32,741 bases of DNA from a virus: positions 1-32,741 of IMG/VR virus record IMGVR_UViG_3300009079_000066. One strand, 5' to 3'. This document shows, piece after piece, positions 5,844 to 23,202 of this stretch; within the stretch, counting starts at the first letter, position 1; each line of letters opens with the position of its first letter. A model generated the notes under the pieces. The model searched no databases. It was not told the DNA's origin and was given only the letters and a program-made list of their open reading frames with translations. The position numbers and the translations under genes are program-made.

Positions 5844-5894
5844 ATTACTGTTAGAATCGGTGAATCTAACCTGGATACAAGCTTGGGCGCGAAC

Positions 5895-7064
5895 ATGAGA
5901 TATACGGAAGTTTCTGCAGTTAACGGCGTCAGAAATGACGTTGATGCAGAACGCTTTGTCTCCGGCGACCTCCAGAGTGCCACAAACATCGATATCGACG
6001 AAACAGGCAAAGCTCGCCGCCGCGCAGGCACAAGCGTCGTGTTCCCCGGCAGCGCCCACTCCGTCTGGGGCGACAAGACCCAAGGGTTCTTCGTTCAGGG
6101 CGGCTGGCTCCACCGTTTTCTCCCAGACAGAACCACGACCGCGCTGGTTGAGGTTCTCGGTGACAGAGTAAGTTACGTGGGAGTGAACTCAGACGTATAT
6201 TGGACTGACGGAGTGGCTGCAGGGGTTGTCTCCCAAGGCGTCTCGTACCCTTGGGGAATTGCCCCACCCCCACGACTGGGCGGCATAGCCACAACCGGGA
6301 ACGTCTCCGGACAAATCCTGGGCACGATGACTTACGTAGATGCCAACGGGGTTGAGTCTGGCGCCCCACAAACATCAGCGTTCGAGGGCAGCATCAGTCT
6401 GTCGCTGCCGGTGTCAGGTGACCCACGAGTGACACACAAACACATCTACATGAGCGCCGTCGGTGGCGACGTCCCCCTTCTCAGCATGGTCGTGCCGAAC
6501 AGCGAGGTCACGGTGCAGCTAACCGACATGATGCCCCGGCAGACTGTTCCCGTCAGAACCCAATTCTTAACACCCCCACCCGCCGGCACAGTGCTCGGGT
6601 ACTACCGGGGGCGTACGTACGTCGCAGTCGGACCGTTCCTCATGTTCAGCCAGCCTTATGAGTACGCCCTGTTCGATCTGCGGTCTGACTTCCTCACATT
6701 CAGCGCAGACATCCAGACGTTTGCGGCCGTCAGTGACGGGATCTTCATTGGCACCACCAACGAAACATTTTTCCTGCGGGGGACAAACCCCGCAGAGTTC
6801 ACCATGCAACTCGTTGCCCCACACGGCACGATCAGGGGGACAGAGCAGATAGTCGCCGGAGATACAACGGGGGCTGATGATGAGCGAGGCAAGGCGGTCG
6901 TCGCGCTCTGGATGGCAAAGACCGGACTAACCCTCGGCAACACAGGGGGGACAATCGAAGGACTTACAGCCCGTAAGTTCACCCCTCCCGCTGCATCGAC
7001 CGGTGCCGCGCTCATAAAAAAGCGTGGCTCGACCCCCCAATACATAACTTCGCTATTTAACTGA
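5895..7064 (+). CDS. Beta-rich virion/tail protein, conserved phage type
   Basis: 389 residues. I prefer the ATG at 5895 (MRYTEVSAVNGVRNDVDAER) over a TTG 12 bases upstream. The segment SATNIDIDETGKARRRAGTS near the N-terminus, followed by HSVWGDKTQGFF, is a pattern I associate with podovirus virion proteins that open with an 'N-D-D-G-x-x-R-R-R-x-G' strand and continue as repeated beta-strands resembling a propeller or stacked beta-sandwich. A Fn3-like stretch (QILGTMTYVDANGVESGAP ... THKHIYMS) lies in the middle. It ends 13 bases before the next gene. It is likely a neck or tail component; the exact position in the particle is unknown. Confidence 0.65.
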   Translation: MRYTEVSAVNGVRNDVDAERFVSGDLQSATNIDIDETGKARRRAGTSVVFPGSAHSVWGDKTQGFFVQGGWLHRFLPDRTTTALVEVLGDRVSYVGVNSDVYWTDGVAAGVVSQGVSYPWGIAPPPRLGGIATTGNVSGQILGTMTYVDANGVESGAPQTSAFEGSISLSLPVSGDPRVTHKHIYMSAVGGDVPLLSMVVPNSEVTVQLTDMMPRQTVPVRTQFLTPPPAGTVLGYYRGRTYVAVGPFLMFSQPYEYALFDLRSDFLTFSADIQTFAAVSDGIFIGTTNETFFLRGTNPAEFTMQLVAPHGTIRGTEQIVAGDTTGADDERGKAVVALWMAKTGLTLGNTGGTIEGLTARKFTPPAASTGAALIKKRGSTPQYITSLFN

Positions 7065-7077
7065 AAGGTAAGTCATC

Positions 7078-7518
7078 ATGGCTGCTCGTCTCTCTACTGG
7101 TCTCGTCAACAAAATGATGGGTACCTCCAGCTTCAAGGATACATTCGCCCTTGGATTTATCGACATCTATACTGGGGTCCAACCCACAAGCGCCGATGCC
7201 ATCCCGACAGGTACGCGGCTCGGCACGCTGTACTCTGACGGTACCGCCACAGGACTCAGTTGGGGAGATGCTCTATTGGGGGCCCTGCCAAAAGCTACAG
7301 GCGAGACTTGGTCTACTATCCTCGTCAATACAGGCACCGCCGGCTGGTTCCGCCTTCGTGAAGCCACAGACACTGGCGTTGACGCCTCGACCACTGCTGC
7401 TCGATACGACGGCGCCATCGCCACAAGCGGCGCAGAAATGAACCTCGGTACTTTGGCGCTCTTGACTGGTGCGCCATTCGTTATCTCGGCGGCAAACTTC
7501 ACCCTCCCACGCGCATAA
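7078..7518 (+). CDS. Small virion-associated protein, paralogue A
   Basis: 146 residues, ATG at 7078, with AAAGGTAAG at 7065-7073 as ribosome site. The layout is IDIYTGVQPTSADAIPTGT, LGTLYSDGTATGLSW, NTGTAGWFRLREATDTGVD, then a C-terminal strand series ending FTLPRA. The same order (IYTGTAPASADDVATGT, then DTGTAGWARWTDG) is present in the protein at 7945, so the two are paralogues separated by an unrelated gene. The family occurs in phage structural regions; I would guess a small beta-sandwich decoration or tail protein. No functional residue is identifiable. Confidence 0.7.
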   Translation: MAARLSTGLVNKMMGTSSFKDTFALGFIDIYTGVQPTSADAIPTGTRLGTLYSDGTATGLSWGDALLGALPKATGETWSTILVNTGTAGWFRLREATDTGVDASTTAARYDGAIATSGAEMNLGTLALLTGAPFVISAANFTLPRA

Positions 7519-7528
7519 GGGGATAAAG

Positions 7529-7936
7529 ATGACACTAAAAGTACCAACCGTCGGCGAGGATGCAATGCTGAAGGATCTCTTGGGGGTCACGACCCCCGGG
7601 GCGCTGACCTTGAAGCTGTACATGAACGATGTAACCCCCGGCGATACCGATACCGCCGTGACCTACACCGAAATGTCCGGACAAGGATATGCATCCAAAG
7701 CCCTGGCAGCAGGGTCTTGGGTCGTCGCTCAGAACGCCGGGGTGGCCGAGGCCACCTACGCTAAACAGACATGGACGTTCACTGGCGGTGCCGCCGTCCC
7801 CGTCTATGGTTATTACGTGGTTGACGCTGGCGGCGTACTGCGCTGGAGCGAGCGGTTCGTCGCAACATATTCCGCAGAGTTCGCGAATGATGCAGTCTCG
7901 GTGACCCCGAAGTTCACATTCAGTTCTGCTAACTAA
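7529..7936 (+). CDS. Small virion-associated protein, unknown
   Basis: 135 residues; the ATG at 7529 is preferred because AAGGGG (7517-7522) lies 6 bases upstream and overlaps the previous stop region. An upstream in-frame ATG at 7469 would overlap the preceding gene by 50 bases. The content is LTLKLYMNDVTPGDTDTAVT, YTEMSGQGYASKAL, a central WTFTGGAAVPVYGYYVVD strand pair and a FSSAN end. It looks like a compact beta-sandwich and is common in structural gene clusters as one of a group of small proteins. Function in the virion is not known. Confidence 0.7.
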   Translation: MTLKVPTVGEDAMLKDLLGVTTPGALTLKLYMNDVTPGDTDTAVTYTEMSGQGYASKALAAGSWVVAQNAGVAEATYAKQTWTFTGGAAVPVYGYYVVDAGGVLRWSERFVATYSAEFANDAVSVTPKFTFSSAN

Positions 7937-7944
7937 GGGCCACC

Positions 7945-8328
7945 ATGACTATCAAATTCAACACCGCGATCCGTAATATTATCGTAGACAACCTCACGAT
8001 AACCGTAGGGACAGAACTACGGATATACACAGGCACTGCGCCTGCTTCTGCCGATGATGTCGCCACAGGAACATTGCTCTGCACTATTACCATCGCCAAC
8101 GGGTTTACCGCATCCGCCGCCGGCTCGTCCGGCCTCGTCGCGACAGAAAGCGCAGTAGCAGTTGACACCGGTACAGCTGGGTGGGCAAGATGGACCGACG
8201 GGTTTACTTATCAGGTCGACGGCTCAGTCGGTGTGTCCGCAGCTGACTTCATCATTAACAGCACGGCGATCACCTCCGGCGGTACGGTCACTCTCACCGA
8301 AATGACTATCACCCAACCAGCGAGCTAA
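7945..8328 (+). CDS. Small virion-associated protein, paralogue B
   Basis: 127 residues, starting 8 bases after the previous stop with a weak AAGGG ribosome site. It aligns by eye with the protein at 7078: LRIYTGTAPASADDVATGT, TIANGFTASAAG, VDTGTAGWARWTDG, and a final strand series ending LTEMTITQPAS. The N-terminal 20 residues differ. The pair probably arose by duplication with the gene at 7529 lying between, or that middle gene may be a far-diverged third copy. A structural role is inferred from context. Confidence 0.7.
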   Translation: MTIKFNTAIRNIIVDNLTITVGTELRIYTGTAPASADDVATGTLLCTITIANGFTASAAGSSGLVATESAVAVDTGTAGWARWTDGFTYQVDGSVGVSAADFIINSTAITSGGTVTLTEMTITQPAS

Positions 8329-9911: not shown

Positions 9912-11726
9912 ATGGCATTCACATTTGACACCCCCGTCAAGACGCAAGCTGAGATACTCCAAAAGGCAGCAGACACTCAGGCGAAATATTATGCGGGGCG
10001 GCTCGACATAATATTAGACAATTTGTTTATGCTTGGGCTCCCAAGCACTAAGGCCCCTCCCGGCCCCGTAGAAGGCGAATTCGACATAGAGAAAGTCTAC
10101 TCCGAGCTTGCAAAGCTGGCCGAATCGGCGCCTCTGATGCCCGACATCCCTCAGTTGGTTGGGCCCCCACCAGAGACGACAATCCCCAAACTTGATGCTC
10201 CCAAGTTTGCCAGCGTGCCGCCCGCGACACCCGCGCCTACGGCCCCCACGTTCACGTTCAGGAACCCACCAAACATAACCTCCGCACCTTTCGGCGGAAC
10301 CGTACCGGTTATGAAGGAGCCTCCCGTTCCAGGGCGCCCAGAGCTCCCCACGCTGCCCGCGCCTACGTTCGAGAACATCGTGATTCCAACAATCACAGAT
10401 GCTGTGTTTCCGGTATTTACAGGGGTGGCACCGAAGAACGACTTTACGGCCCCCACGGAGCTCTTCGTGTATGCGGAGAAGCCCTACGAGTCCGCCCTTG
10501 CAGATGCGGCAACTGCCAAGCTGATGAACGACTTGATGTCGGGCGGGTATGGCATTGAGATAGCCGATGAGATTGCCCTATGGGACCGAGCCAGAGACAG
10601 AGAAATCCGCGGCGCCGACGCAGCAACAGCCGAGATGTCCCGACAGATGGCCAGCCGGGGGTTCTCCCTGCCGCCAGGAACAATGCTGGCCCAACTGGCC
10701 AGCATACAACAGGGCGTGACTGAGAAGCTCAGCACCCTGTCGCGCGACATCGCGCTGAAACGAGGCGACATGTACGTGGAGAACCGCAAGTTCACCATCG
10801 AGCAAGTTCGCCAGTACGAGAAGATTGCCGTCGACATGCACGTGTCGCTGATGGAACGGACCCTGAACGCAGCGAAGGCTGTGGTCGAGTTGGGGCTGGC
10901 TGTCTACAACGCGAAGATCGTGATGTTTAATGCAGGGTTGGAGGAGTTCAAAACCCTCGCCTCTGTCTATGAGGCGGAAATCCGGGGAGCGTTGGGTATG
11001 CTCGAAGGGCAGAAACTCAAACTCCAGACGGTGGACTCCACGATCAACATCCAGAAGAACAAAGCAGAGCTGTACAAAGCGGAGCTCGACGCGCAGAAAC
11101 ACATAGTCGAGATGTATCGCGTTGACATCGAAGCAATGAAAGCGCTACTTGGGGCCGAAGGCATGAAGTTTGATGTGTTCCGCACAGAGGTGATGGCGTA
11201 TGGAGAAATGCTGAAAGCGGGCACTTTGAGTATGCAGGGGTATGAGACCCAGATGAGGGGCGATGCCATCCGTGCTGATGTGTACAAGACCCTCGTGAGT
11301 GCGCAAGCAATCGACATGGAGCGCAGCAAAACCGCCGCGTCGATCATCGAAGGTAACAACAAAATCGCCATCGAGCACGTGCGCACTGCGGCCCAGGCGG
11401 TTACTGCAGAGGCCGACGTGTTCCGCTCCAAGGCACAGGGCATCTCCGCGAACAACGAGGCCAACGCGAAAGCCTTCACCGCACGTACTGAGGCGTTCAA
11501 GGCGCTGGCGAGTGTCTATAAATCCATCGGCGAGATCGACCTGTCACGACTAGATGCCAGTACCCGTGTGGCTCTCGAGAACGCCCGCATTACGGTCGAG
11601 CGCGAGAAATTAGAAACTGACAGACGAGTAAGAGCGACCATCGCTGGATCTGAAGGTAACTCAAAAGCGATGCAGGCAGCCCTGAACCAAGTGATCAGTA
11701 TTGCTTCCGTCACAGCGTCAGCCTAA
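9912..11726 (+). CDS. Proline-rich/coiled-coil internal virion protein candidate
   Basis: 604 residues; AGGA (9901-9904) precedes the ATG at 9912. Residues about 50-165 are Pro-rich and low in complexity (TPAPTAPTFTFRNPPN, PVPGRPELPTLPAPTFEN). From about 180 to the end the chain is almost entirely helical and Ala/Glu/Lys-rich, with heptad-like spacing, interrupted near 250 by SRGFSLPPGTMLAQ. This segment resembles a loop found in other phage proteins of this type. It is followed by two further large proteins, as the internal core or ejection proteins of podoviruses usually are. It probably assembles as an extended helical bundle. No lysozyme, protease or transmembrane signature is seen. Confidence 0.7.
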   Translation: MAFTFDTPVKTQAEILQKAADTQAKYYAGRLDIILDNLFMLGLPSTKAPPGPVEGEFDIEKVYSELAKLAESAPLMPDIPQLVGPPPETTIPKLDAPKFASVPPATPAPTAPTFTFRNPPNITSAPFGGTVPVMKEPPVPGRPELPTLPAPTFENIVIPTITDAVFPVFTGVAPKNDFTAPTELFVYAEKPYESALADAATAKLMNDLMSGGYGIEIADEIALWDRARDREIRGADAATAEMSRQMASRGFSLPPGTMLAQLASIQQGVTEKLSTLSRDIALKRGDMYVENRKFTIEQVRQYEKIAVDMHVSLMERTLNAAKAVVELGLAVYNAKIVMFNAGLEEFKTLASVYEAEIRGALGMLEGQKLKLQTVDSTINIQKNKAELYKAELDAQKHIVEMYRVDIEAMKALLGAEGMKFDVFRTEVMAYGEMLKAGTLSMQGYETQMRGDAIRADVYKTLVSAQAIDMERSKTAASIIEGNNKIAIEHVRTAAQAVTAEADVFRSKAQGISANNEANAKAFTARTEAFKALASVYKSIGEIDLSRLDASTRVALENARITVEREKLETDRRVRATIAGSEGNSKAMQAALNQVISIASVTASA

Positions 11727-11761: not shown

Positions 11762-14386
11762 ATGAAACAAAAATCTAACAGCCTCAGAATGGCCAATGGC
11801 AGCGAGCTGACACACCGATTTGCCAAACAGCAGACCCTGCGCATGAACGACGGCGGCGAGGCCCCCACAGGAAGCTTCAAGTGGATGTACCAGCAGGCTC
11901 AGAAAGCTCTGGCCCCTTCGCCACAACAAAGACCGGCCGCACAAGCACCCGTGCAAGCCCCTGCCCCAGTGCAAGCCCCTGCCCAGGCACAGCCGCCGAC
12001 GTTGCGCGCCATCTCTGAGTATTCAGGCAACAGCGCACTCGATCGCCGCATGGCGGCTGCCGAAGTAGGGATGAACGATGGCGGTGAACGACCTAAGCAT
12101 GAGTTCCCTGACGGTCTACCGGGCCACGCCCGTGGGCTTGGCGGGGAAGTCAAAGGCAAAGGAGGCATCGACATGAACCCGTCGTTTTATACGAAGGGCG
12201 AGGTTGTAGCGTCCGTCGATATGCTCGAGGAGGTACCGGGGCTGCGTGAAGACTTGCTCGACCTACGCGAGAAGGTCTTGGCCAAGAAGGGCATGACCCC
12301 AGAGGAAGCCGACGCAAAAGCTATGAGCGGCGGGACGCTGCGCGCAAACGATGGCGGCAGAGCAAGGTTCCACGCCCGGGTTGGCGAGAGGCTGACAGCA
12401 AAGGAAGCAGCGGCAGCCGCGGCTAATGCGGAGCAGGCCCGTGTTCAGGCTGCAAGACAACAAGTGGCCCCCTACGTTAACCATCGCCCACCGAACTCCC
12501 CATACGTCGAACCAATCAAACAGATCGGCTACACACCGAAGCCCGTAAGTACGGCTGTCGCAACTCGCCCATATACCCCCGACTTCACCTTCGCAGATAA
12601 CGATGTTCGCCAAGCGCCTCGAGCCGAGCGCACAGGGAAGTACGACTCGCAGCCTGTCCCCAAGTCAGCCCCAGCGTCGTCCCCCACCCGCATGTCGACA
12701 GAAGGTAAGGCTTTTTCCGCGCAGCACTCAGCGCAGTACCCCCCGAAGGTCGCTCCCGCCGCTCCCGCCGCCGCTGTCCCAGTGTCTAAGGGGGCGGCCA
12801 CACTGCGCTCCCTCGGCCGTGGCGCTGCAGGCGTAGGCCTGGCCCTCGAAGCCAAAGACGTTTACGACGTTGCCAGAGACCCGAACGCGACAAAAATCGA
12901 CGTAGGTACTCAGGCTGCAGAGGGAGCAGGAAAAATTGCTTCCGGCTATCTCGGGGCCAAAGCCGGCGCTGCTCTCGGCACACTCGGCGGTCCGTTCGCC
13001 CCAGTTACTGTCCCGCTAGGTGCGGTAGCGGGCGGCGTGGCCGGGTATTTTGGCGGCGAGAAACTTATAAGCACCCTGCGTGGGGCGGCGGACCTCGACC
13101 CCCGGTCGCCAGACGCACAGATCAACGCACGTAAAGCACAGACGCGCGTGCCCCAGGCCCCGAGGCTCTCCGGCACCAATGTTGTTGGCGGGGATGCGCC
13201 CGGCGCGCAGCAGCAGGCTGCCGCCCCGATGGCAGCCCCACGCTCGGAGTATTTCGCACCAGGCACCGCACGTAACCGAGAAGCCAGCGCGATGATTGAT
13301 AGCGGAATGGGATATATCCCTAACCGCGGCGAAGGCATGCTCCGTTCGAGCTCCGGCGGGATCGTAAAGCTCAACACGAGCGGCGACTACACTCCGCCAC
13401 CCTCTGCAGATATGCTGCGCCGCCAGTACGCACCCACGGACTATGCAAACAGTGCTACCGCCAGAGCCGCCGCCATCCCAAGTACCGCCGAAATGATTCC
13501 GTACTCCCCACCCCCGAGGGCGAGGGCGGGGAGCTGGGCGGGGGAGCTCATGGACATAAAACGTGACAGGGAAGATGCCAACCGTGAGGTTACAAGGCGC
13601 GGCCAAGACCTGACGTATGCATCGTCGAGCGAGACTAACCGCCGACAGGAGGATATCGCTGCAGCAACGAACCGCCGACAGGAGGAAATCGCTGCAGCAA
13701 CGAACCGTACGACTCTACGTGGACAGGACATGGAGCTCGAACAGCGCCGGATTGCAGCGCAAGGTACAGCCGCCACTGCAGCGCAGGCTCAGTCCAATTG
13801 GGAACGGACCCATAACCTCGCGGTGGGGAACCAGAAGCAGACATTCAAAACCGCGGAAGAGGCCAGCATCGCGAAGAAAAACGAGGAATGGGACAAGTCG
13901 GCCAGCCGGCTGTTCATGACACGTGATCCGGAGACAAAAGAACCGATCGTGGACAAGGCCACGATCGCTGCATTTACAAAGGACACCGACAACACGATCA
14001 AGGCAATGGTCAGGGACCTACTAAAGAGTAGCGATCCGGCCGAGGTCGAATATGCCGAACGCCTAGCGAAAGAGGGCAGAAGCGCGCTCGACGAAAATGA
14101 CCGAGCAGAGATGCTCCAAAACTTCCGCATTAGTCAGGCGCACGAGAGAGGACAAAAAAACTCAAGCAGTGCGTTTGGTCTTGGCCCTACTGGCGCGAAA
14201 GAGTCCGACCTTCGTAAATACGCCCTGACTGGCAAACCAGTCAATAGCATGCAACGGCGTTTTGCTACCACCGGCGGGCATACAATCCCTGAAGTTGATC
14301 TGACACACGGCCCTGATGCCAACCGGATTTTCTGGAATTCCGGCCCAGGCACAAACGAGCTGCTCCCACCCAAACTGAGGAACTAA
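11762..14386 (+). CDS. Large internal virion protein with glycine-rich hydrophobic segment
   Basis: 874 residues; GGAG (11751-11754) is the ribosome site. The first 200 residues contain four short motifs of the type L-R-M-N-D-G-G (at about 8-14, 26-32, 103-109 and 193-199). They also hold a segment (GGEVKGKGGIDMNPSFYTKG, then EVVASVDMLE) similar to the Gly/Lys motif found in phage internal and tape-measure-like proteins. Pro/Ala-rich linkers follow. Near residues 340-440 is a hydrophobic, glycine-zipper-like stretch (AGKIASGYLGAKAGAALGTL, then PLGAVAGGVAGYFGG) able to insert into a membrane. A 33-base tandem duplication encodes TNRRQEDIAAA twice. The C-terminal third is charged and helical. 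It is probably an ejection protein; that function is inferred from position and the hydrophobic segment. Confidence 0.7.
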   Translation: MKQKSNSLRMANGSELTHRFAKQQTLRMNDGGEAPTGSFKWMYQQAQKALAPSPQQRPAAQAPVQAPAPVQAPAQAQPPTLRAISEYSGNSALDRRMAAAEVGMNDGGERPKHEFPDGLPGHARGLGGEVKGKGGIDMNPSFYTKGEVVASVDMLEEVPGLREDLLDLREKVLAKKGMTPEEADAKAMSGGTLRANDGGRARFHARVGERLTAKEAAAAAANAEQARVQAARQQVAPYVNHRPPNSPYVEPIKQIGYTPKPVSTAVATRPYTPDFTFADNDVRQAPRAERTGKYDSQPVPKSAPASSPTRMSTEGKAFSAQHSAQYPPKVAPAAPAAAVPVSKGAATLRSLGRGAAGVGLALEAKDVYDVARDPNATKIDVGTQAAEGAGKIASGYLGAKAGAALGTLGGPFAPVTVPLGAVAGGVAGYFGGEKLISTLRGAADLDPRSPDAQINARKAQTRVPQAPRLSGTNVVGGDAPGAQQQAAAPMAAPRSEYFAPGTARNREASAMIDSGMGYIPNRGEGMLRSSSGGIVKLNTSGDYTPPPSADMLRRQYAPTDYANSATARAAAIPSTAEMIPYSPPPRARAGSWAGELMDIKRDREDANREVTRRGQDLTYASSSETNRRQEDIAAATNRRQEEIAAATNRTTLRGQDMELEQRRIAAQGTAATAAQAQSNWERTHNLAVGNQKQTFKTAEEASIAKKNEEWDKSASRLFMTRDPETKEPIVDKATIAAFTKDTDNTIKAMVRDLLKSSDPAEVEYAERLAKEGRSALDENDRAEMLQNFRISQAHERGQKNSSSAFGLGPTGAKESDLRKYALTGKPVNSMQRRFATTGGHTIPEVDLTHGPDANRIFWNSGPGTNELLPPKLRN
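13637..13702 (+). repeat. 33-bp tandem duplication inside the 874-aa gene
   Basis: Two adjacent 33-base units (13637-13669 and 13670-13702) differ at a single base (T versus A in GGAGGATATC/GGAGGAAATC). They encode NRRQEDIAAAT and NRRQEEIAAAT within a helical region, so the frame is kept. This is a recent in-frame duplication and a likely site of length variation between relatives. Confidence 0.9.
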
Positions 14387-14388
14387 TT

Positions 14389-17300
14389 ATGGGCATGTTT
14401 GCTGACTATGTACGCAGGGCTAACGAATCAGAGCAGACCGTTAAAGATCAGTCCCTCTCTGGTGAGTTCAGCGCCGGGCTCCGTGGGGCAGGCAATGCCA
14501 TCGCCGGGCAGCTTAACTCGTACGCGGGGCTGGCTGCAGAGAACCTCGGAGCAGACGAGTTTGCGGCCGACCGGCGCAGGTCAGCAGACGAGTACATGCA
14601 GCGCTCGAACGAGCTCGGCGAAGGTGCGGTACCACTTGAAGACGCACTGGACAGCCCGAGCAACGCGCTGCGCTGGGGCGCACGTACAGCTGGAAGTGTG
14701 TTGCCATACTTGGGCTTGACGGCTGCAGGTACGATGGCAGCCCCTGCCGCTCTCGGCACCGGCATCGCCCGAGGCATCGTCGGCGGTGGTATCGGTATGG
14801 CTGGCCCGTCTGCTGGTGCAATCGTGCAGCGGCAAGAGGCTGACCCAGAAACAATGCAGGACAGCGCCGGTGACCGCTTCGGTCGCGCTACAGGTGGCGG
14901 TCTGCTTGCTGGTGGCGCCTTGTCCCTGCCATTCGGCAGTGTGCTTGGCAAAGCTGGCAGCGGCGCCCTGATGGGCGTTGGCAAACGTGTGGCCGCATCT
15001 CCGTCCCTGCTTGGTGCAACAGCCAAGAACTTGGGCGAAGGCGCAGCCACAGCCGGTATCGGTATGGGCGGCGGCAACGTCGTCGAACAGAAGTTCACGA
15101 ACTTCAACAACGACATCGACTGGAACGAAGCCGGGCAGATGGCCAAAGAAGGCGCGGCCATGGGCGCGTTCCTCCACGCCCCGCTTATCCCGGGCGCGTA
15201 CATGCGCGGACGTACCAACCAAGTCGGCGATGCTATCGTCGGCGCCAAAGATCGTGTGATCGAGGGCATGAAGACAGAGGAAGGCCGCTGGAAAGGTTTC
15301 AGCCAAGCCGCAGATATCGCCGGTGATATCAGCAAGAACACATGGGACGCCACCAAGAAGGCGATGCCCGAAGGTTGGCAAGAGCATGCCACCGCCGCCG
15401 GTGAGTGGGTCAAGGCCAACTACAAGACGAACTTCGACGAAGCCAAGGCGACAGTAAAGCAGTGGGCTGCTGACATTGCTATCGATGAGAACACTTTGCC
15501 TTCTATCAAAGCCGCCGTCGCAGAGGCAGTCAAGAACCCGCGTGACCGTACGAACCAGACGATCATCGCGATGGCGAACTTCGCCAAAGAAGGGTTCAAG
15601 AAATTCAACGAAGAGCCTACCGTCGTCAAGCCACGCGTGTCGCCACTGGAACGACTCAACGAGATCAAAGACGTTGACCGTACCGACGACGCTGACGTGG
15701 CGGCGATCGCCAAGGGCGAGCCAGCCGGCGGCATCAAACAGTTCATCGGCAAGTCAGTTGAGCAAGTCAACGAGCTGCTCAACCTGTCTGAGAACAAGAC
15801 GGTACAGAAGGTGCAGAAGTGGGGCGAGGAGCTACTGAATGACAACGGCTTGAACCCCACTGAGCGCGCACGTATCGCCGAGACTCTACGGAATGAGGGC
15901 GACGCTGCCTCGGCCCGAATCATTGCCGAAGCCACCCGCGCCGCGCGCGTGTCACGCAAGTACCTGAACAAGGCCAAGGCGCTGGCCGACACATTCAAAA
16001 AGAGACCAGACGACGGCACGAAGAAGTCGGAAGACCTCGAAGGGTTCCGAGCCGCTCTGCGGCAGGGCGTTCTCCCCTACCTGTATAAGAACATGCCGGA
16101 GCTGTTCGCCGAGAACGGCCAGGAGTTCCGCCACCCAGCTGCACTGAAAGTAACGGCCGATAACCTGAACCGTGCAATCGAAGACATGGCTCGCGGTGAA
16201 ATGTCTTCGGGCTCGATGGCGCGACTGATCGACATGCTCGGTGAGCACACCATGCCCGTGATGGAGCGCCTGATGGCAGCCACTGGCCGGTCACTCGGCC
16301 AAGGCAAGGATGCCAACCGCGTGTTCCTCGATGGCCAACAGCGCGCGCCGACCAACGGCAAAGGCGCGATGGGCGAGAACAACACGATGCAGGATCAGCT
16401 CACGAACCTCATGCGTGACCGCGAGGCGATGCCAAGCGACCTGTTCACTCAGCAGTTCATGCAGCTGGCGCGACTGTCAAACAAAGACGCTGAGATTTCC
16501 CAGATCGTCCGCCATGCCCTGACACCAGAGTGGCAAGAACGCCTGACGATGGACGAGGTCCGTGACATTAGCAAACAGTTCACACAATGGGCCGAAGGGC
16601 TGCACTTGACGAAGGTATCTGGCAGTAGAAAAGGAGCTTCCCGTCTCTCAGCAGCTCTCCCCGAGACACCAGATATGTTCGGCAGAGACGTGCCCCATCT
16701 CGGGAACCGGATGTGGCCTGGAGACAACCCCGTTGAAAAAGTCAACTACACTGGCATCGCTGACCCGCTGGCATCGCGCCCCGCAGGTAAAGCCGAAGGC
16801 GGCAAGGGGCCAAACGATGCCGAGCCAGGCACACCACTCTTCCAGACCGATGCCGGGCTGTACAACGAGAAGGGCGTACGCGAGAAGTTCGCCGACTACT
16901 TCGGCGAGAGCGCAGACCAAGTGTCTGAAGCATTCGAGAAGCTCGCCCGGGACCGCTACCTCAAAGAGCCGACCCCAGTGGACCGCTTCGATGCAGACGG
17001 CAACCGTATTGAGGAAGCCGAGTTGGAGCGCGTTGTCCGTGGCGGCAACTTCGTGGGCAAGGGCGGCAAAGCCAAAGCAGCCAACGAAGAAGGCGGTATA
17101 AAGAAACGCGGCGAACACCAGACCGACGGCGACGGTAAGATGATTCGTGAGCCCGACCAAGTGGAGTCGATGCTGCAGAACCCTGCCAAATGGCAGGCAG
17201 GCGGCAGAAAAGGATTCAACAAAGCCAGCCAACTCATGATGGAGATGGAAGCCGAGTTCCCTGCCCACCGCGTGTTCTGGGAACAGGCCGACGGCGCAGG

Positions 17301-20300
17301 AAAGGGCTGGGGTTATATCATCGCTGAGCGCGAGAAGGTTCCTGGCCGGCTTGACCACAATGACATTCAGAGCATGCTGGCTGACCGCAGCGTCAGCAGA
17401 GACGGCATCCCACGTATCCGCAAAGCGGACACAGTTGTCGTCGAGTTGTCTTCGGGCACCCGCCTTGAGTTCGACGCTACACGCGTCGCTTGGCACGCAG
17501 CGAAGAAACTGCCCTACATTGACGGTGAGAGCAGCGCTACACGTCAGGCGAAGGCGGCGGTCGAGGGCATAGCCAGCCTCTTTGATAAGTACGGCGACCA
17601 GCTCAAGAAGGGAGCCGAGATCAAGATCGACCCTGAAGCCGTCGTCGGCAAACTTGGCACCACCAAAGAAGGCGACACTGTCCCTCTCTTGTGGAAAGAC
17701 GTTAAGAACTACATGGCACGTGATGCCAACTACGAACGCACACAGGAGTTCGAGCGCAACGCTGCCGACCTCAATGAGCGCGAGCGGCTGGCGGACGAGG
17801 ACTTCACAGAGAGCCAGACACTCACTGAGGCCGACGCTGCTGGTGGGAGCTTCGAAGGGCGCGGCGCGCGCCGGGGCGGAGCTACGAAACTTTCGTACGA
17901 CACAACAGACATGGACTGGCGTGATCAGTGGCGCGCAGACAACGACCAGGCGGGCGAACTGAGCTTTGAACCGGGCACGATCAAGGAGAACTTGTCTACG
18001 AAACTCCTCCGCGAAGAGGGCAAGTATGAAGGACAGGACTCCGACAACATCCACCGTGCTGCACTCGAGCGCGGTAGCAGCTCGGAGCGCAAGGGCGACG
18101 CCGATCGTATCGGCGAGACTTCTGCCAAGTTAAAGCACACGTCGAACCCAGACGGGACGGCGAGCTCGAGCCTCAAGGTGCTCTCACGGGAACAGAACGC
18201 GCACATCAACAAGATCAACAAGACGCTTGACTATTGGTACGAGATCGGGACTCCGGCTGCACATGCGCTGGTCAACAAGGTCGACGCACTGCTCAATCCA
18301 CGCAGCGATAAAAACCTTGCGGCTGGTAGCGCACGCAACGCCATGTCCGCACGGGATTTGACTGAGTTGCTCAGCATCCGTAACACGCTCTCTCCAGGGC
18401 CAGCGGCTGCCATCGTCAACAAGATGTACGCGAAATACAAACGGTTTCTGCCAGAGGCGGTGCAGGACGTTGTTGCCACGAAAGGCCCGATCGGTAAGAG
18501 CAAGACCAAGTTCGTCGACGGGAAAGTCGTCGACAAGAACGGCAAACCTCTCGTCCAAAGTCCTCAAGAATGGGAGTCAGGCCTTAACAGGAACCAGGAA
18601 GCCAAGCGCATAGCCGCCGCCAACAAAGTACCAGCTGCGCGCCCCGAGTTTGGCGTGTTCACTTCGTTACCTGAGCTGGGCCTCGCTGATCAAGGCGACC
18701 TGTTCCCCATAGGCGTACCGAAAAGTGCACGACCTGGAAGCGCCGATACACGGAGCAACGCCCTGAAGAAGAGCCGCGAAATCATCGAGGCGGAGATCGA
18801 CACAATCCGCTTTGAACATGGCCGCGACCCTGACCTGATGCCGCCTGCTGTGCAGGAACGATACTTCGAGCTGCAGGACCAGCACCGTAATCTCAAGAGT
18901 ATCGAGAACGGGAAGCTCGTTGGAGAAACCGAAGCAAAAGTGGCGCCCAAGCCAGAGTTCGGTGATCCTGTGGGGTTATGGGAATTGCAGAGGGCGGAGG
19001 AAAGAGCACCGGACGCGGAAATCCGCAAACTTTATGACGCTGCGCGCCGCGGGGACATAGACTACGAGTACATTAATAAGGAAGGACGCTTCTACATTAA
19101 AAACCGCGGCCCCGAAGGAGACGTCGTACATTTTGCCCCAAGGTTGGAGGGCTCCCCCGACCCAAAAGCACCAGCCGCCAAAAAGGCGGCGCTCCTGAAA
19201 GCAGCTTCCTCCTCTGACCCAGCCCTGCTCAAAGAGCTCAGCACGTCGACAGACGTGAAGGGGCTGCAGCGCACGCTCGAAGTTCTGAACGATGCATACG
19301 GTAGCCGACTGACCGAACGCGTAGCTGCCAAAGTTGGCCCGAACAAGTTCCGTCAGTTGGGCGCGGACATGGACGAGCTGTTGAACTACTTCGCAGAGAA
19401 GGACAACTTCTCCCGTAGTGCACTTCGTGAGAACCCTGTCATCAAAGCCGGGATGGAGAAGCTGCGGGAAGCACGTCGGAACGGCGACGCAGAAGCTACC
19501 GAAGCCCTGCACTCGTTCCTCCAGAAAGAGCACCAGTTCTTCAGTCTGGAAAATGCGCGTGACACACAAGCCGCCGTGGTCGACGGTCTGAACAAGGCCA
19601 AGCCACGTACGCTGTCCAGCTACATGGACATTGTCATCAACTCTAAAGACGTGCCGTCGATCATCCGTGAAGTGGCCCGGGCAGTAAAAGATGTGTCACC
19701 AGACACGAAGGTCTCCAGCGTCCATGACTTGAAGGACCTGGGGGTGTTCAACTCTGCAGACAACACTATCAGCGTCCGTGGTGGCTTGAAGGGGCCGACC
19801 CAGATCCTCCTGCATGAGGGTGTGCATGCAGCAACTGTAAAAGCTCTCGTCAAAAATCCGGAGCTTAGCAACGCCGTGCTCGAGTTGATGGACCACGTAG
19901 CGAAGACCAACAAGGAGCTGGTCGATGCCTACGGGATGAAGGACTCAGGAGAGTTCTTGGCAGAAGGGCTGACGAACCGCGGATTCCAGAAAAGCCTCGA
20001 AGCAATCCCTGCGAGTGACGCGGTGCGCAAGTACCTCGGGAAGCACGTTGCGAATGCGTGGCAAGCGTTTGTCGCGATAACCCGCAAGGCCCTCGGCTTG
20101 CCAGAAGGCAAAGACACAGCCCTGACCCAACTGCTCGATCTGGGCAGACAGGCAATGTACGAAACCAAAAAGGCGGGTGACAACACTGTGACCCCGAAAG
20201 AGTACGCAGACTGGGTGGCGCGCCCCATTGAACCGGTGGGCGATCTGGTGCAGTCGATCAACCGTGTGAAAGCACGCCTGCCTGACAAAGCCATGGCTGC

Positions 20301-23202
20301 AGAACTCGACGCTCTGGTCACCAAGGCTGAGCAGGAAGGCGGCGCAGCGTACGCTACTGTCTTCGCCGCTGAAAAAGCAGCCCAAGTGTTTGACAACTGG
20401 ACGCGCAACGGGCGGGAGATGGGCGCAGACGACGTGCGCAAGACAGTCGATAAAATCCTGGGTGCGCATCTGGACGTGGAAGAAGCACGCGTTGCTTCCC
20501 GCTCTGGCGAGGAGGCTGCTATCGACGCCACCAACAAGCGCATTGCCGAGCTGATCAAGGAGAACCCAGACATTACGTACGGCATGCAGCTCGAGAGTAA
20601 GAAGAGCCTGGCCAACAACACAGCTGGTCCGCACGGCCCGTTAGTTCAAGCCAAGATCGAACGCCTGGCCAAGAAACTCCTCGGTCCGACAGTAAAAGCT
20701 TCGTTGGAAGCCATGGGGCACGCTGGTGATTTCCGCCGCGACTCGCAGCTGCACGTTGACGTGCTACGGGTTTCGACGACAGCGAAGAACCCAATGGGGA
20801 CTCTGCACCACGAAGCACTGCATGCATTCTTCGGCCATCTGCGTAATGCCAAGATGAATGATGTGACACATCTGCTGGAGAAGTACAGCGCCTCGCCGCA
20901 CATCATGAAGCAGCTGCGTGAGCGCCTGAAGGACTCCCCTGAAGCACTCAAACAACTCCGTGAGCCAGAGGAGCGCGCGGCCTACATGTTCCAGTTTTAT
21001 AAAACTGACAAGTCGTTCAAGATCATGCCGCAGACACGTACGCTGTTCGCCAAGATCAACGACATGCTGCACAAGGTGATGGGGCTCTGGACGAACCAGT
21101 CGCGTGCCATTGAAATCATGGACTACTTCGGCCGTGGCGATTTCAAGAACGACATGGGTGACATGAACGTGGTGCATGCCAAGCTGATGGAGACGAACCG
21201 GATTGCCGCCGTCGAGTCAATGAAGAAACACGTTGGTGCCCTCGGCCGGCTCGGCGACAGTATGCTCGGCATGGGCGGTCACCGCCTTCGTGATACGGGT
21301 ATACCCTCACTGATCAAGATCGCTGATCTTGTGAAGTCCGACAGCCGGGGACAGGGCGGCGATCGCGGCCACTTGCCGGCAGCTCGTGAGGCGCGCGCCC
21401 AAGTTATGAACAAGTACGCCGACGAGATGAGTCGCTACACCAAAGAGGAACACGCAGCCGCACTTGAGGCCATGCAGAAAGGTGTCAAAGCCACTGGCAA
21501 GGCTCGTCAGGTGCAGAGGCTCACTGAGCGGACTTTGGGCGGCGTTGACCCCTCGACTGGGGCCCTCACCGGCATGTTCGGCTACATGGTCGACAAGGGT
21601 GTGAACATCGGACTGCTCAAAGACAAGAACGGTGCCCACTACTTCCCACGTGTCTGGGACGCCCACTACATCTCGAAGAATCAGGCCGCGTTCACAGCGA
21701 TGATGGACAAGTACGTGCAGTCTGGCCAATTCAAGGGTGACCCACAGGCCATGATGCGCAACCTCATGGTTGGAGACGGCAGCACGTATGGCATTGAGAC
21801 TCGTCAGCCCGGCATGCAGTTCAAGAAGGAACGCCATCTGCAGTTCATCGATCATGCCGACGCCGCTCCGTTCCTCAACAAAGACCTGCTCGGTACGATC
21901 GACAACTACGTGACTCAAGGCACCCGGCGCGCTGAGTGGGCTTCGCGGTTCGGCGATGACGCCAAGATACTCACGGGGCTGCTCGAGAAAGCTAAAAAGG
22001 AAGGCGCAACACCGCTCCAGATCATGCAGGCTGAGACCTATCTGCGCGGTATCGATGGTACTCTGGGCGACAACATCGACCCGGGCTTGCGCCGTATGTT
22101 CGGTAATGCAATCATCTACCAGAATATCCGGTTGCTTCCGCTGGCGCTGTTCAGTTCGCTTGTCGACCCGCTCGGCATTGCAGTCCGTGGTGGTACTCCG
22201 AAGCAAGCGTTCGGCGCCTTCGTCAAGGGGATGAAAGAGATACCCAACGGATTCCGGGACATCCAGAACCGTAAAGTCTCTCCAGAGGAGCGCACTGCTG
22301 AGTTGCTCGGAGTTATAGACAACGCTTGGCTTCACTCGACCATGGGCTCGCTGTACACGCAGGGTCTGGTGGGCGAGACAGGGCGCAAGATCAACGACAC
22401 CTTCTTCAAGTACAACATGATGGAGGGCTTCAACCGGAGCATGCGCTCTGCAGCTTCGGCGGCGGCGATCAAGTTCATTGAAACCCATGCTGACGGCAAG
22501 GCCTCCACTCACAGCTCGCGCTGGATGCAGGAGCTGGGGTTCGGCGTGGGCGCGGACAGCGCTATACATCTGAAGGCCGACGGATCCCTGAAGTTAACCG
22601 AAGCTGATGGGCTCACACCTGCCCAGGCGGCCAAAGTTAGACAGGCTGTTAACCAGTGGGTTGACGGGGCGATTCTCCGTCCAGACGCTGCAGACAAGCC
22701 AATGTGGATGAATGACCCACACTGGGCTCTGGTTGCGCACCTGAAGCAGTTCACTTGGAGCTTCCAAGAGACCATCCTCAAGCGGATTGGGCACGAGTGG
22801 AAGAACGGTAACTTCAGCCCTGCTCTGGCCATGGCCTCTTATATCCCCATGATGATCGCTGCAGACAGCGCGAAAGGCCTCATCCAAGGCGGTGGTTCCC
22901 AGCCTGACTGGAAAGACAACTGGGGGCCTTCTGAGTACTTCTGGTCAGGGGCTCAACGCACCGGGGTTTTTGGGGTTAGCCAGATCGGTATCGACTCCAT
23001 GTCTTCCATCCAGCGGGGTGGTGCCGGGGTTGGAAACCTTGCCGGGCCAATGCTCGAACAACTGGGCGATGGCATAAGCGTAATCGGCGGCAGAAAGCAG
23101 TTCGACTCTTTCGCCATGCGCGCACTTCCTGCCAACGCGGTCTATTCCCAGTGGGTAAAAGAAGGGGTTGACCCTCCACCGGAGTTCAATTTTCAGGAGT
23201 AA
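14389..23202 (+). CDS. Giant virion/polyvalent-type protein with two HExxH motifs
   Basis: 2937 residues; GAGGA (14377-14381) lies 7 bases before the ATG. The first 240 residues alternate amphipathic helices with glycine-rich hydrophobic stretches (GIARGIVGGGIGMAGPSAGA, ATGGGLLAGGALSLPFGSVL). Most of the centre is helical with charged linkers. Two zinc-peptidase-like motifs are visible: H1809-E-G-V-H1813 with a downstream GEFLAEGL (E1855, E1859), and H2141-E-A-L-H2145 with E2194/E2195 before RAAYMF. Each therefore has a plausible third ligand. The last 650 residues include HYFPRVWD and a C-terminal region of a kind shared by large phage and mobile-element 'polyvalent' proteins. I infer that it is packaged and delivered into the cell with the DNA, with protease activity against host or virion targets. 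No phage RNA polymerase or methylase motif was found. Confidence 0.75.
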   Translation: MGMFADYVRRANESEQTVKDQSLSGEFSAGLRGAGNAIAGQLNSYAGLAAENLGADEFAADRRRSADEYMQRSNELGEGAVPLEDALDSPSNALRWGARTAGSVLPYLGLTAAGTMAAPAALGTGIARGIVGGGIGMAGPSAGAIVQRQEADPETMQDSAGDRFGRATGGGLLAGGALSLPFGSVLGKAGSGALMGVGKRVAASPSLLGATAKNLGEGAATAGIGMGGGNVVEQKFTNFNNDIDWNEAGQMAKEGAAMGAFLHAPLIPGAYMRGRTNQVGDAIVGAKDRVIEGMKTEEGRWKGFSQAADIAGDISKNTWDATKKAMPEGWQEHATAAGEWVKANYKTNFDEAKATVKQWAADIAIDENTLPSIKAAVAEAVKNPRDRTNQTIIAMANFAKEGFKKFNEEPTVVKPRVSPLERLNEIKDVDRTDDADVAAIAKGEPAGGIKQFIGKSVEQVNELLNLSENKTVQKVQKWGEELLNDNGLNPTERARIAETLRNEGDAASARIIAEATRAARVSRKYLNKAKALADTFKKRPDDGTKKSEDLEGFRAALRQGVLPYLYKNMPELFAENGQEFRHPAALKVTADNLNRAIEDMARGEMSSGSMARLIDMLGEHTMPVMERLMAATGRSLGQGKDANRVFLDGQQRAPTNGKGAMGENNTMQDQLTNLMRDREAMPSDLFTQQFMQLARLSNKDAEISQIVRHALTPEWQERLTMDEVRDISKQFTQWAEGLHLTKVSGSRKGASRLSAALPETPDMFGRDVPHLGNRMWPGDNPVEKVNYTGIADPLASRPAGKAEGGKGPNDAEPGTPLFQTDAGLYNEKGVREKFADYFGESADQVSEAFEKLARDRYLKEPTPVDRFDADGNRIEEAELERVVRGGNFVGKGGKAKAANEEGGIKKRGEHQTDGDGKMIREPDQVESMLQNPAKWQAGGRKGFNKASQLMMEMEAEFPAHRVFWEQADGAGKGWGYIIAEREKVPGRLDHNDIQSMLADRSVSRDGIPRIRKADTVVVELSSGTRLEFDATRVAWHAAKKLPYIDGESSATRQAKAAVEGIASLFDKYGDQLKKGAEIKIDPEAVVGKLGTTKEGDTVPLLWKDVKNYMARDANYERTQEFERNAADLNERERLADEDFTESQTLTEADAAGGSFEGRGARRGGATKLSYDTTDMDWRDQWRADNDQAGELSFEPGTIKENLSTKLLREEGKYEGQDSDNIHRAALERGSSSERKGDADRIGETSAKLKHTSNPDGTASSSLKVLSREQNAHINKINKTLDYWYEIGTPAAHALVNKVDALLNPRSDKNLAAGSARNAMSARDLTELLSIRNTLSPGPAAAIVNKMYAKYKRFLPEAVQDVVATKGPIGKSKTKFVDGKVVDKNGKPLVQSPQEWESGLNRNQEAKRIAAANKVPAARPEFGVFTSLPELGLADQGDLFPIGVPKSARPGSADTRSNALKKSREIIEAEIDTIRFEHGRDPDLMPPAVQERYFELQDQHRNLKSIENGKLVGETEAKVAPKPEFGDPVGLWELQRAEERAPDAEIRKLYDAARRGDIDYEYINKEGRFYIKNRGPEGDVVHFAPRLEGSPDPKAPAAKKAALLKAASSSDPALLKELSTSTDVKGLQRTLEVLNDAYGSRLTERVAAKVGPNKFRQLGADMDELLNYFAEKDNFSRSALRENPVIKAGMEKLREARRNGDAEATEALHSFLQKEHQFFSLENARDTQAAVVDGLNKAKPRTLSSYMDIVINSKDVPSIIREVARAVKDVSPDTKVSSVHDLKDLGVFNSADNTISVRGGLKGPTQILLHEGVHAATVKALVKNPELSNAVLELMDHVAKTNKELVDAYGMKDSGEFLAEGLTNRGFQKSLEAIPASDAVRKYLGKHVANAWQAFVAITRKALGLPEGKDTALTQLLDLGRQAMYETKKAGDNTVTPKEYADWVARPIEPVGDLVQSINRVKARLPDKAMAAELDALVTKAEQEGGAAYATVFAAEKAAQVFDNWTRNGREMGADDVRKTVDKILGAHLDVEEARVASRSGEEAAIDATNKRIAELIKENPDITYGMQLESKKSLANNTAGPHGPLVQAKIERLAKKLLGPTVKASLEAMGHAGDFRRDSQLHVDVLRVSTTAKNPMGTLHHEALHAFFGHLRNAKMNDVTHLLEKYSASPHIMKQLRERLKDSPEALKQLREPEERAAYMFQFYKTDKSFKIMPQTRTLFAKINDMLHKVMGLWTNQSRAIEIMDYFGRGDFKNDMGDMNVVHAKLMETNRIAAVESMKKHVGALGRLGDSMLGMGGHRLRDTGIPSLIKIADLVKSDSRGQGGDRGHLPAAREARAQVMNKYADEMSRYTKEEHAAALEAMQKGVKATGKARQVQRLTERTLGGVDPSTGALTGMFGYMVDKGVNIGLLKDKNGAHYFPRVWDAHYISKNQAAFTAMMDKYVQSGQFKGDPQAMMRNLMVGDGSTYGIETRQPGMQFKKERHLQFIDHADAAPFLNKDLLGTIDNYVTQGTRRAEWASRFGDDAKILTGLLEKAKKEGATPLQIMQAETYLRGIDGTLGDNIDPGLRRMFGNAIIYQNIRLLPLALFSSLVDPLGIAVRGGTPKQAFGAFVKGMKEIPNGFRDIQNRKVSPEERTAELLGVIDNAWLHSTMGSLYTQGLVGETGRKINDTFFKYNMMEGFNRSMRSAASAAAIKFIETHADGKASTHSSRWMQELGFGVGADSAIHLKADGSLKLTEADGLTPAQAAKVRQAVNQWVDGAILRPDAADKPMWMNDPHWALVAHLKQFTWSFQETILKRIGHEWKNGNFSPALAMASYIPMMIAADSAKGLIQGGGSQPDWKDNWGPSEYFWSGAQRTGVFGVSQIGIDSMSSIQRGGAGVGNLAGPMLEQLGDGISVIGGRKQFDSFAMRALPANAVYSQWVKEGVDPPPEFNFQE

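Follow-up and report, generated by a model that had tools for sequence, protein, structure and literature searches.

To our knowledge, the role of the HExxH domains that are widespread in phage ejection proteins is unsettled. Among the closest described systems are the polyvalent proteins, 36% of which were found by Iyer et al. in 2017 to carry between one and five MPTase domains, drawn from 12 clades and present in more than one copy in ∼8% of those proteins; cleavage both of the protein itself and of host proteins was proposed for them, with P1 DdrB being processed before packaging and the N4 virion RNA polymerase (vRNAP) being packaged unprocessed (PMC5512222). The N4 authors noted an HExxH motif in C1 of this polymerase, gp50 (PMC12633501), and residues 268-528 of the PhiM1 ejection protein gp48 were called endolysin/exotransglycosidase-like by the authors of that work, who placed a lysozyme-like domain elsewhere (OEP) (PMC11440229). 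A further point of reference is KPP25, described as a podophage in the title of a work cited in PMC13340246.

Here we report the analysis of a 2937-aa protein with two HExxH domains, encoded in a virus record of 32,741 bases (IMG/VR record IMGVR_UViG_3300009079_000066), the whole of which was analysed and is referred to below as the window. We put at about 0.68 the probability that this is a large internal ejection protein of a KPP25-like podophage, whose two zincin-type peptidases act at or after ejection on the protein itself or on host proteins.

The gene and its surroundings

The gene and its two candidate partners are arranged as follows:

9912..11726, plus strand: 604-aa gene, matching family phrog_10969; candidate partner ejection protein, a role suggested by position
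11762..14386, plus strand: 874-aa gene adjoining the 2937-aa gene upstream; candidate partner ejection protein, likewise by position
14389..23202, plus strand: giant virion (predicted ejection) protein, 2937 aa, with both HExxH domains; open reading frame with ATG start and no internal stop

The protein sequence holds exactly two HExxH motifs, HEGVH at residues 1809-1813 and HEALH at residues 2141-2145, which are spaced 332 residues apart and followed by GEFLAEGL at 1854 and EERAAYMF at 2194, respectively. This confirms the pair of motifs, each with a distal Glu (E1855 and E2195), on which the original prediction was built. HExxH occurred on average 0.06 times in a shuffled protein of the same composition, and 0.35% of the shuffles held two or more, but the conservation of both sites is a more telling argument than such counts. 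We rejected chance motifs because both sites are conserved across homologues, and an inactive relic because the general-base Glu is retained throughout. Pfam offered no credible match to the whole protein or to pieces of it, nor did NCBIfam match the whole protein.

The location of the gene among late virion genes is one of the marks of polyvalent proteins: a head-closure-type protein (5883-7064) and virion proteins (7078-8328) are encoded upstream, and genes for DNA ligase, exonuclease and DNA polymerase lie downstream on the opposite strand. The protein matches the virion structural protein family phrog_30152 with an E-value of 1.1e-129, and its residues 2126-2923 share 33% identity with a KPP25-type structural protein; podophage annotations list KPP25 ORF088 and its relatives as structural proteins. 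The layout is similar in the KPP25-like phage CRPAP1904, in which a gene of 809 aa is followed by one of 2107 aa, the former being the positional counterpart of our 874-aa gene, for which a PHROG scan gave no family match.

Several further observations concern the virus as a whole. The genes at 7078-7518 and 7945-8328 both match the structural family phrog_3758 and are apparently paralogues, and 1101-1841 encodes a protein with a lectin-like Laminin_G_3 domain that is perhaps a tail or receptor-binding part. A megablast search of window bases 1-25000 against phages returned zero matches. Nearly the same virus has been sampled again in a separate contig of 5610 bases (L010), in which the C-terminal 442 residues of the protein are encoded at 100% identity. 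Scanning of genome contigs produced a single locus (L123, from a Burkholderiales MAG), which is too little for a host call.

The two HExxH domains

The two domains and their predicted active-site residues map to the following positions:

19612..20196, plus strand: domain 1, about residues 1742-1936, zincin-type HExxH domain with a lethal-factor-like/N4-C1-like fold (profile, model and structure comparison)
19813..19827, plus strand: HEGVH, residues 1809-1813, in which H1809 and H1813 are the predicted zinc ligands and E1810 the predicted general base (invariant in 59 rows)
19930..19953, plus strand: YGMKDSGE, Y1848 to E1855, with E1855 the predicted third zinc ligand (alignment)
20671..21393, plus strand: domain 2, about residues 2095-2335, zincin-type HExxH domain at the core of the protein family (alignment, model and profile relation to domain 1)
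20809..20823, plus strand: HEALH, residues 2141-2145 (invariant in 27/27 rows)
20968..20994, plus strand: EERAAYMFQ, residues 2194-2202, with E2195 the predicted third zinc ligand (alignment)

Across 59 aligned rows of domain 1 there is no variation at H1809, E1810, H1813 or E1855, and Y1848, seven residues before E1855, is at least 90% conserved. These rows were collected in part by the HExxH pattern and are biased towards it; a fair sample is provided by plain tblastn with no motif filter, which gave relatives in crAss-like phages as well as pradovirus internal virion proteins, a Vibrio vRNAP and a DarB-like protein, and the HExxH is retained in all eight of the relatives that were read. No domain 1 was found in plasmids. 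Against solved chains the domain 1 profile matched an internal virion protein (9sfn, E 2e-22), PhiM1 gp48 (8vb2, 8e-14) and gp10 (23sg, 1e-13), a sequence relation to proven ejection proteins that is confined to domain 1, as well as lethal factor (8e-4) and the N4 virion RNA polymerase (PDB chain 11fw, 0.004). The domain 1 region also matched phrog_2206, the N4 vRNAP C1 HExxH region, with an E-value of 8e-6. The predicted model (pLDDT 85) shares the zincin fold with PhiM1 gp48 (VIA Z 10.2), N4 vRNAP C1 (9pnr, Z 7.0) and lethal factor (Z 6.5), and the HExxH with a Glu in a later helix is the arrangement of the zincin superfamily. By profile and model, domain 1 is a zincin of a type already known from phages.

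Domain 2 has no matching Pfam family, and its relatives were collected by scanning viral contigs with the peptides EER[AI]AYM and [FL]FKYN[ML]M, which produced 33 related loci. Each of the 27 distinct rows, one of them that of the window, carries H2141, E2142, H2145, E2195 and A2198, and R2196, Y2199, M2200 and Q2202 are each present in 26 of the 27. Since neither scan peptide contains HExxH, the conservation of the His residues is not an artefact of selection, but that of E2195, which falls within one of the peptides, was partly selected for. Loss of the active-site H or E in close homologues was thus looked for, and none was seen in the 59 domain 1 rows, the eight unfiltered relatives or the 27 domain 2 rows.

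The model of domain 2 has a pLDDT of 74 overall, rising to 85-97 across most of the active-site half, and places both the HExxH and the Glu region in helices, again as in zincins. Its best VIA match is the catalytic domain of lethal factor, at a Z of 6.2 over 124 residues that lies in the range allowing chance similarity, and with Foldseek alone this model had no significant match. Profile comparison of the two domains with hhalign brought their HExxH motifs into register, and their Glu regions likewise (P 1.3e-6); alignments were needed, as degenerate scans with the single sequence of each domain found nothing. Taken together, the support for domain 2 as a predicted zincin is good but not complete.

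The two centres that the original prediction called independent are indeed separate zincin-type centres, but the hhalign match indicates that they are not independent in origin. A recent tandem duplication of one domain was considered and rejected, domain 1 being nearer to the N4/PhiM1-type domains than to domain 2. Since both domains keep the H, E, H and distal Glu, each is likely to bind a metal ion and to be catalytically competent; for both, metal binding is inferred from the conserved ligands, and proteolysis, substrates and timing are predictions.

Architecture across the family

The domains are set within a larger architecture, the other parts of which are:

14389..15183, plus strand: N-terminal module, residues 1-265, Gly/Ala-rich and hydrophobic (profile hits)
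19141..19329, plus strand: conserved linker, first half, residues 1585-1647, SPDPKAPAAKKAALLK...DVKGLQRTLEVLN (40-67% identity to the linkers of L011, L015, L017, L023, L026, L032 and L033)
20485..20589, plus strand: conserved linker, second half, residues 2033-2067, AIDATNKRIAELIKENPDITYGMQ (junctions of L017 and L015)
21385..23172, plus strand: C-terminal module, residues 2333-2928, strongly conserved in the family (profile comparison)

The N-terminal module hits KPP25-type proteins (E 3.7e-34), tf_51 (1.3e-18) and Phriendly_045 (7.5e-15) in profile comparisons, and no solved relative of it was found; the C-terminal module, which has no credible Pfam or PDB match, makes up most of the compact tf_51 and Phriendly_045. 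These two proteins (1021 and 919 aa) consist of the end modules only and have no HExxH. The same modules (1-265 and 2333-2928) are also common to L051 and phiA008, and in the 2937-aa protein the ∼2000 residues between them hold both zincin-type domains. In relatives without domain 1 the linker halves are adjacent and form one linker, ...AAKKAALL...KGLQRA...L...AINKRL..LV.NPD.AYGLQ, whereas in the window protein they are split by ∼385 residues that include domain 1. The two domains occur together only in the window, L016 (on a contig shared with L044) and L043, and these three do not group in a tree of domain 2 plus the C-terminal region, which forces at least two gains or losses; L016 instead adjoins L015, a relative without domain 1. 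The split linker and the lack of grouping indicate that domain 1 comes and goes at the linker. As judged from these alignments, the two predicted peptidases are not equivalent: domain 2 is fixed, the conserved and near-universal peptidase of the protein family itself, and domain 1 is a patchy, optional cassette in the interdomain linker.

Other members carry other combinations. L051 combines domain 1 with the end modules and lacks the domain 2 HExxH, phiA008 (P0003) has the end modules with a different domain (HELGH...FDEWFADQF at residue 1079), and L014 has HEFGH...FDEYFANQF at ORF residue 751 together with domain 2, from which it appears that several zincin types are set between the same two ends. 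We consider it tentative, and on balance rather unlikely, that the family as a whole represents a podophage ejection scaffold in which different zincin clades (domain-1, domain-2, HEFGH and HELGH) are swapped or stacked between the two conserved ends; the window, L016 and L043 would then unite a standard self-processing peptidase with an acquired one directed at the host, both within a single injected polypeptide.

The variable middle regions of the relatives gave nothing convincing in Pfam. One cassette, FAATHDSP..FDW..H.G.GEG...GAGTYLS ... NYVIYDDSKI, recurs between the linker and domain 2 in L043 (ORF residues 2050-2330), L015 (1550-1850), L011 (1090-1416) and L026 (1475-1895), also with no convincing Pfam match. 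In phiA008 (P0003), residues ∼10-110 precede the same N-terminal module and look by eye like a staphylococcal nuclease type, for which an NCBIfam scan gave nothing.

Function and comparison with known systems

The relation to KPP25-type structural proteins and, in the case of domain 1, to solved ejection proteins makes it most likely that the 2937-aa protein is packed in the head and ejected with the DNA. Packaging and ejection would follow by analogy, in a role comparable to that of T7 gp16, PhiM1 gp48 and N4 gp50. The scaffold would consist of the two end modules (1-265 and 2333-2928), which the peptidase-free compact relatives also have; domain 1, set in the linker just upstream of domain 2, is of the same type as the domain in the N4 virion RNA polymerase and T7-like internal virion proteins. 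Cleavage would most likely take place upon ejection or later. Domain 2 would free or reorganise segments of its own giant polypeptide, and domain 1 would carry out further processing or cut host proteins. A self-directed role is more likely for domain 2 because it is fixed, and that of an added effector for domain 1 because it is optional.

The strongest competitor, to which we give somewhat less than an even chance, is a self-processing machine in which both domains cut the 2937-aa polypeptide at its interdomain linkers, whether ahead of packaging, within the capsid or inside the host. Self-processing has been proposed for polyvalent MPTases by Iyer et al., P1 DdrB being cleaved before packaging (PMC5512222), and it would suit both the siting of optional domain 1 within a linker that joins conserved modules and the size of the protein, which may hinder threading through the tail channel. 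However, the N4 vRNAP is packaged unprocessed despite its domain-1-type MPTase (PMC5512222), so self-cleavage before packaging is not general; tf_51 and Phriendly_045 have the end modules without the domains, which argues that the scaffold needs no processing; and no cleavage site was identified.

Less probable again is that one or both domains are injected effectors that cleave host defence, envelope or transcription factors after entry. The lethal-factor-like fold of domain 1, its patchy gain and loss and the swapping in of other zincin types (HEFGH in L014, HELGH in phiA008), both of which look like the behaviour of arms-race cassettes, and the annotation of one relative as a DarB-like antirestriction protein all fit this reading, but domain 2 is kept in essentially all members from diverse phages, more like a core function, and nothing points to a host target. 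The original prediction put forward host defence or envelope proteins as targets, or maturation of other virion proteins, and any of these may apply.

It is improbable that the domains lack catalysis and serve the ejectosome only as structural parts, whether by binding metal or simply through a zincin fold. The PhiM1 gp48 domain is inserted in the hub and modelled within the assembled ejectosome (PMC11440229), and in some ejectosomes the role of domain 1 could be solely structural, but the H-E-H-E set is fully conserved in homologues of both domains and a purely structural site would not need the general-base Glu. Slightly less probable still is a role on peptidoglycan or cross-bridges during ejection, as suggested by the endolysin/exotransglycosidase-like description of the matching PhiM1 gp48 domain (268-528) and the lytic transglycosylase annotation of pradovirus proteins with a domain-1-type domain, since the conserved residues are a zincin HExxH plus Glu, the fold matches lethal factor and N4 C1 and not lysozyme, and the PhiM1 lysozyme-like domain is elsewhere (OEP) (PMC11440229).

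The family offers a useful series: compact members have no peptidase, most have one fixed peptidase and a few add an optional second peptidase at a defined linker, so that the roles of the two domains should be separable by mutation.

The analogy to polyvalent phage proteins drawn in the original prediction fits, as this is a giant multidomain phage virion protein in a late-gene context with interspersed MPTase domains, sometimes more than one. It differs in having no recognised Pfam family and no recognised enzymatic partner domain: besides the two MPTase-type domains there are other modules, among which a second enzymatic class was not recognised with Pfam or NCBIfam. KPP25 ORF088 and the Kochitakasuvirus structural proteins have the same domain 2 (HESMH, EERIAYM) and a related N-terminus, but the CRPAP1904 protein, at 2107 aa, is without domain 1 and has another middle region. 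C1 of N4 gp50 resembles domain 1 in sequence and fold; in contrast to gp50, the window protein has an extra zincin downstream, another C-terminus and no recognised polymerase domain. The vRNAP family match covers only the C1 HExxH region, with no RNAP-module match in a whole-protein PHROG scan at E 0.001 and no Pfam match to a T7-like RNAP domain. The catalytic domain of anthrax lethal factor, with its HExxH and distal Glu, is the best or near-best fold match of both domains, but at ∼13-15% identity and with no further domain in common, implying no toxicity to people.

The best structural match of domain 1 is the PhiM1 tetrameric ejection protein gp48 (8vb2; 142 residues aligned at 3.6 Å), whose sequence likewise has an HExxH and distal Glu, although gp48 is 1263 aa long against 2937 and has one such domain. 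Pradovirus relatives labelled peptidoglycan or lytic transglycosylase (L124, L126, L129 and L131) match the domain 1 type and keep the HExxH and distal Glu. The comparison links zinc peptidases to domains that carry endolysin or transglycosylase labels in several phages, and on sequence and model the labels given to those in PhiM1 gp48 and the pradoviruses are probably wrong. The original prediction regarded two such centres in one protein as unusual; they are uncommon, but phage proteins with multiple MPTases were already documented by Iyer et al. in 2017 (PMC5512222), and what is less expected here is the fixed-plus-optional arrangement of the two domains and the apparent mislabelling of domain-1-type domains in PhiM1 and the pradoviruses.
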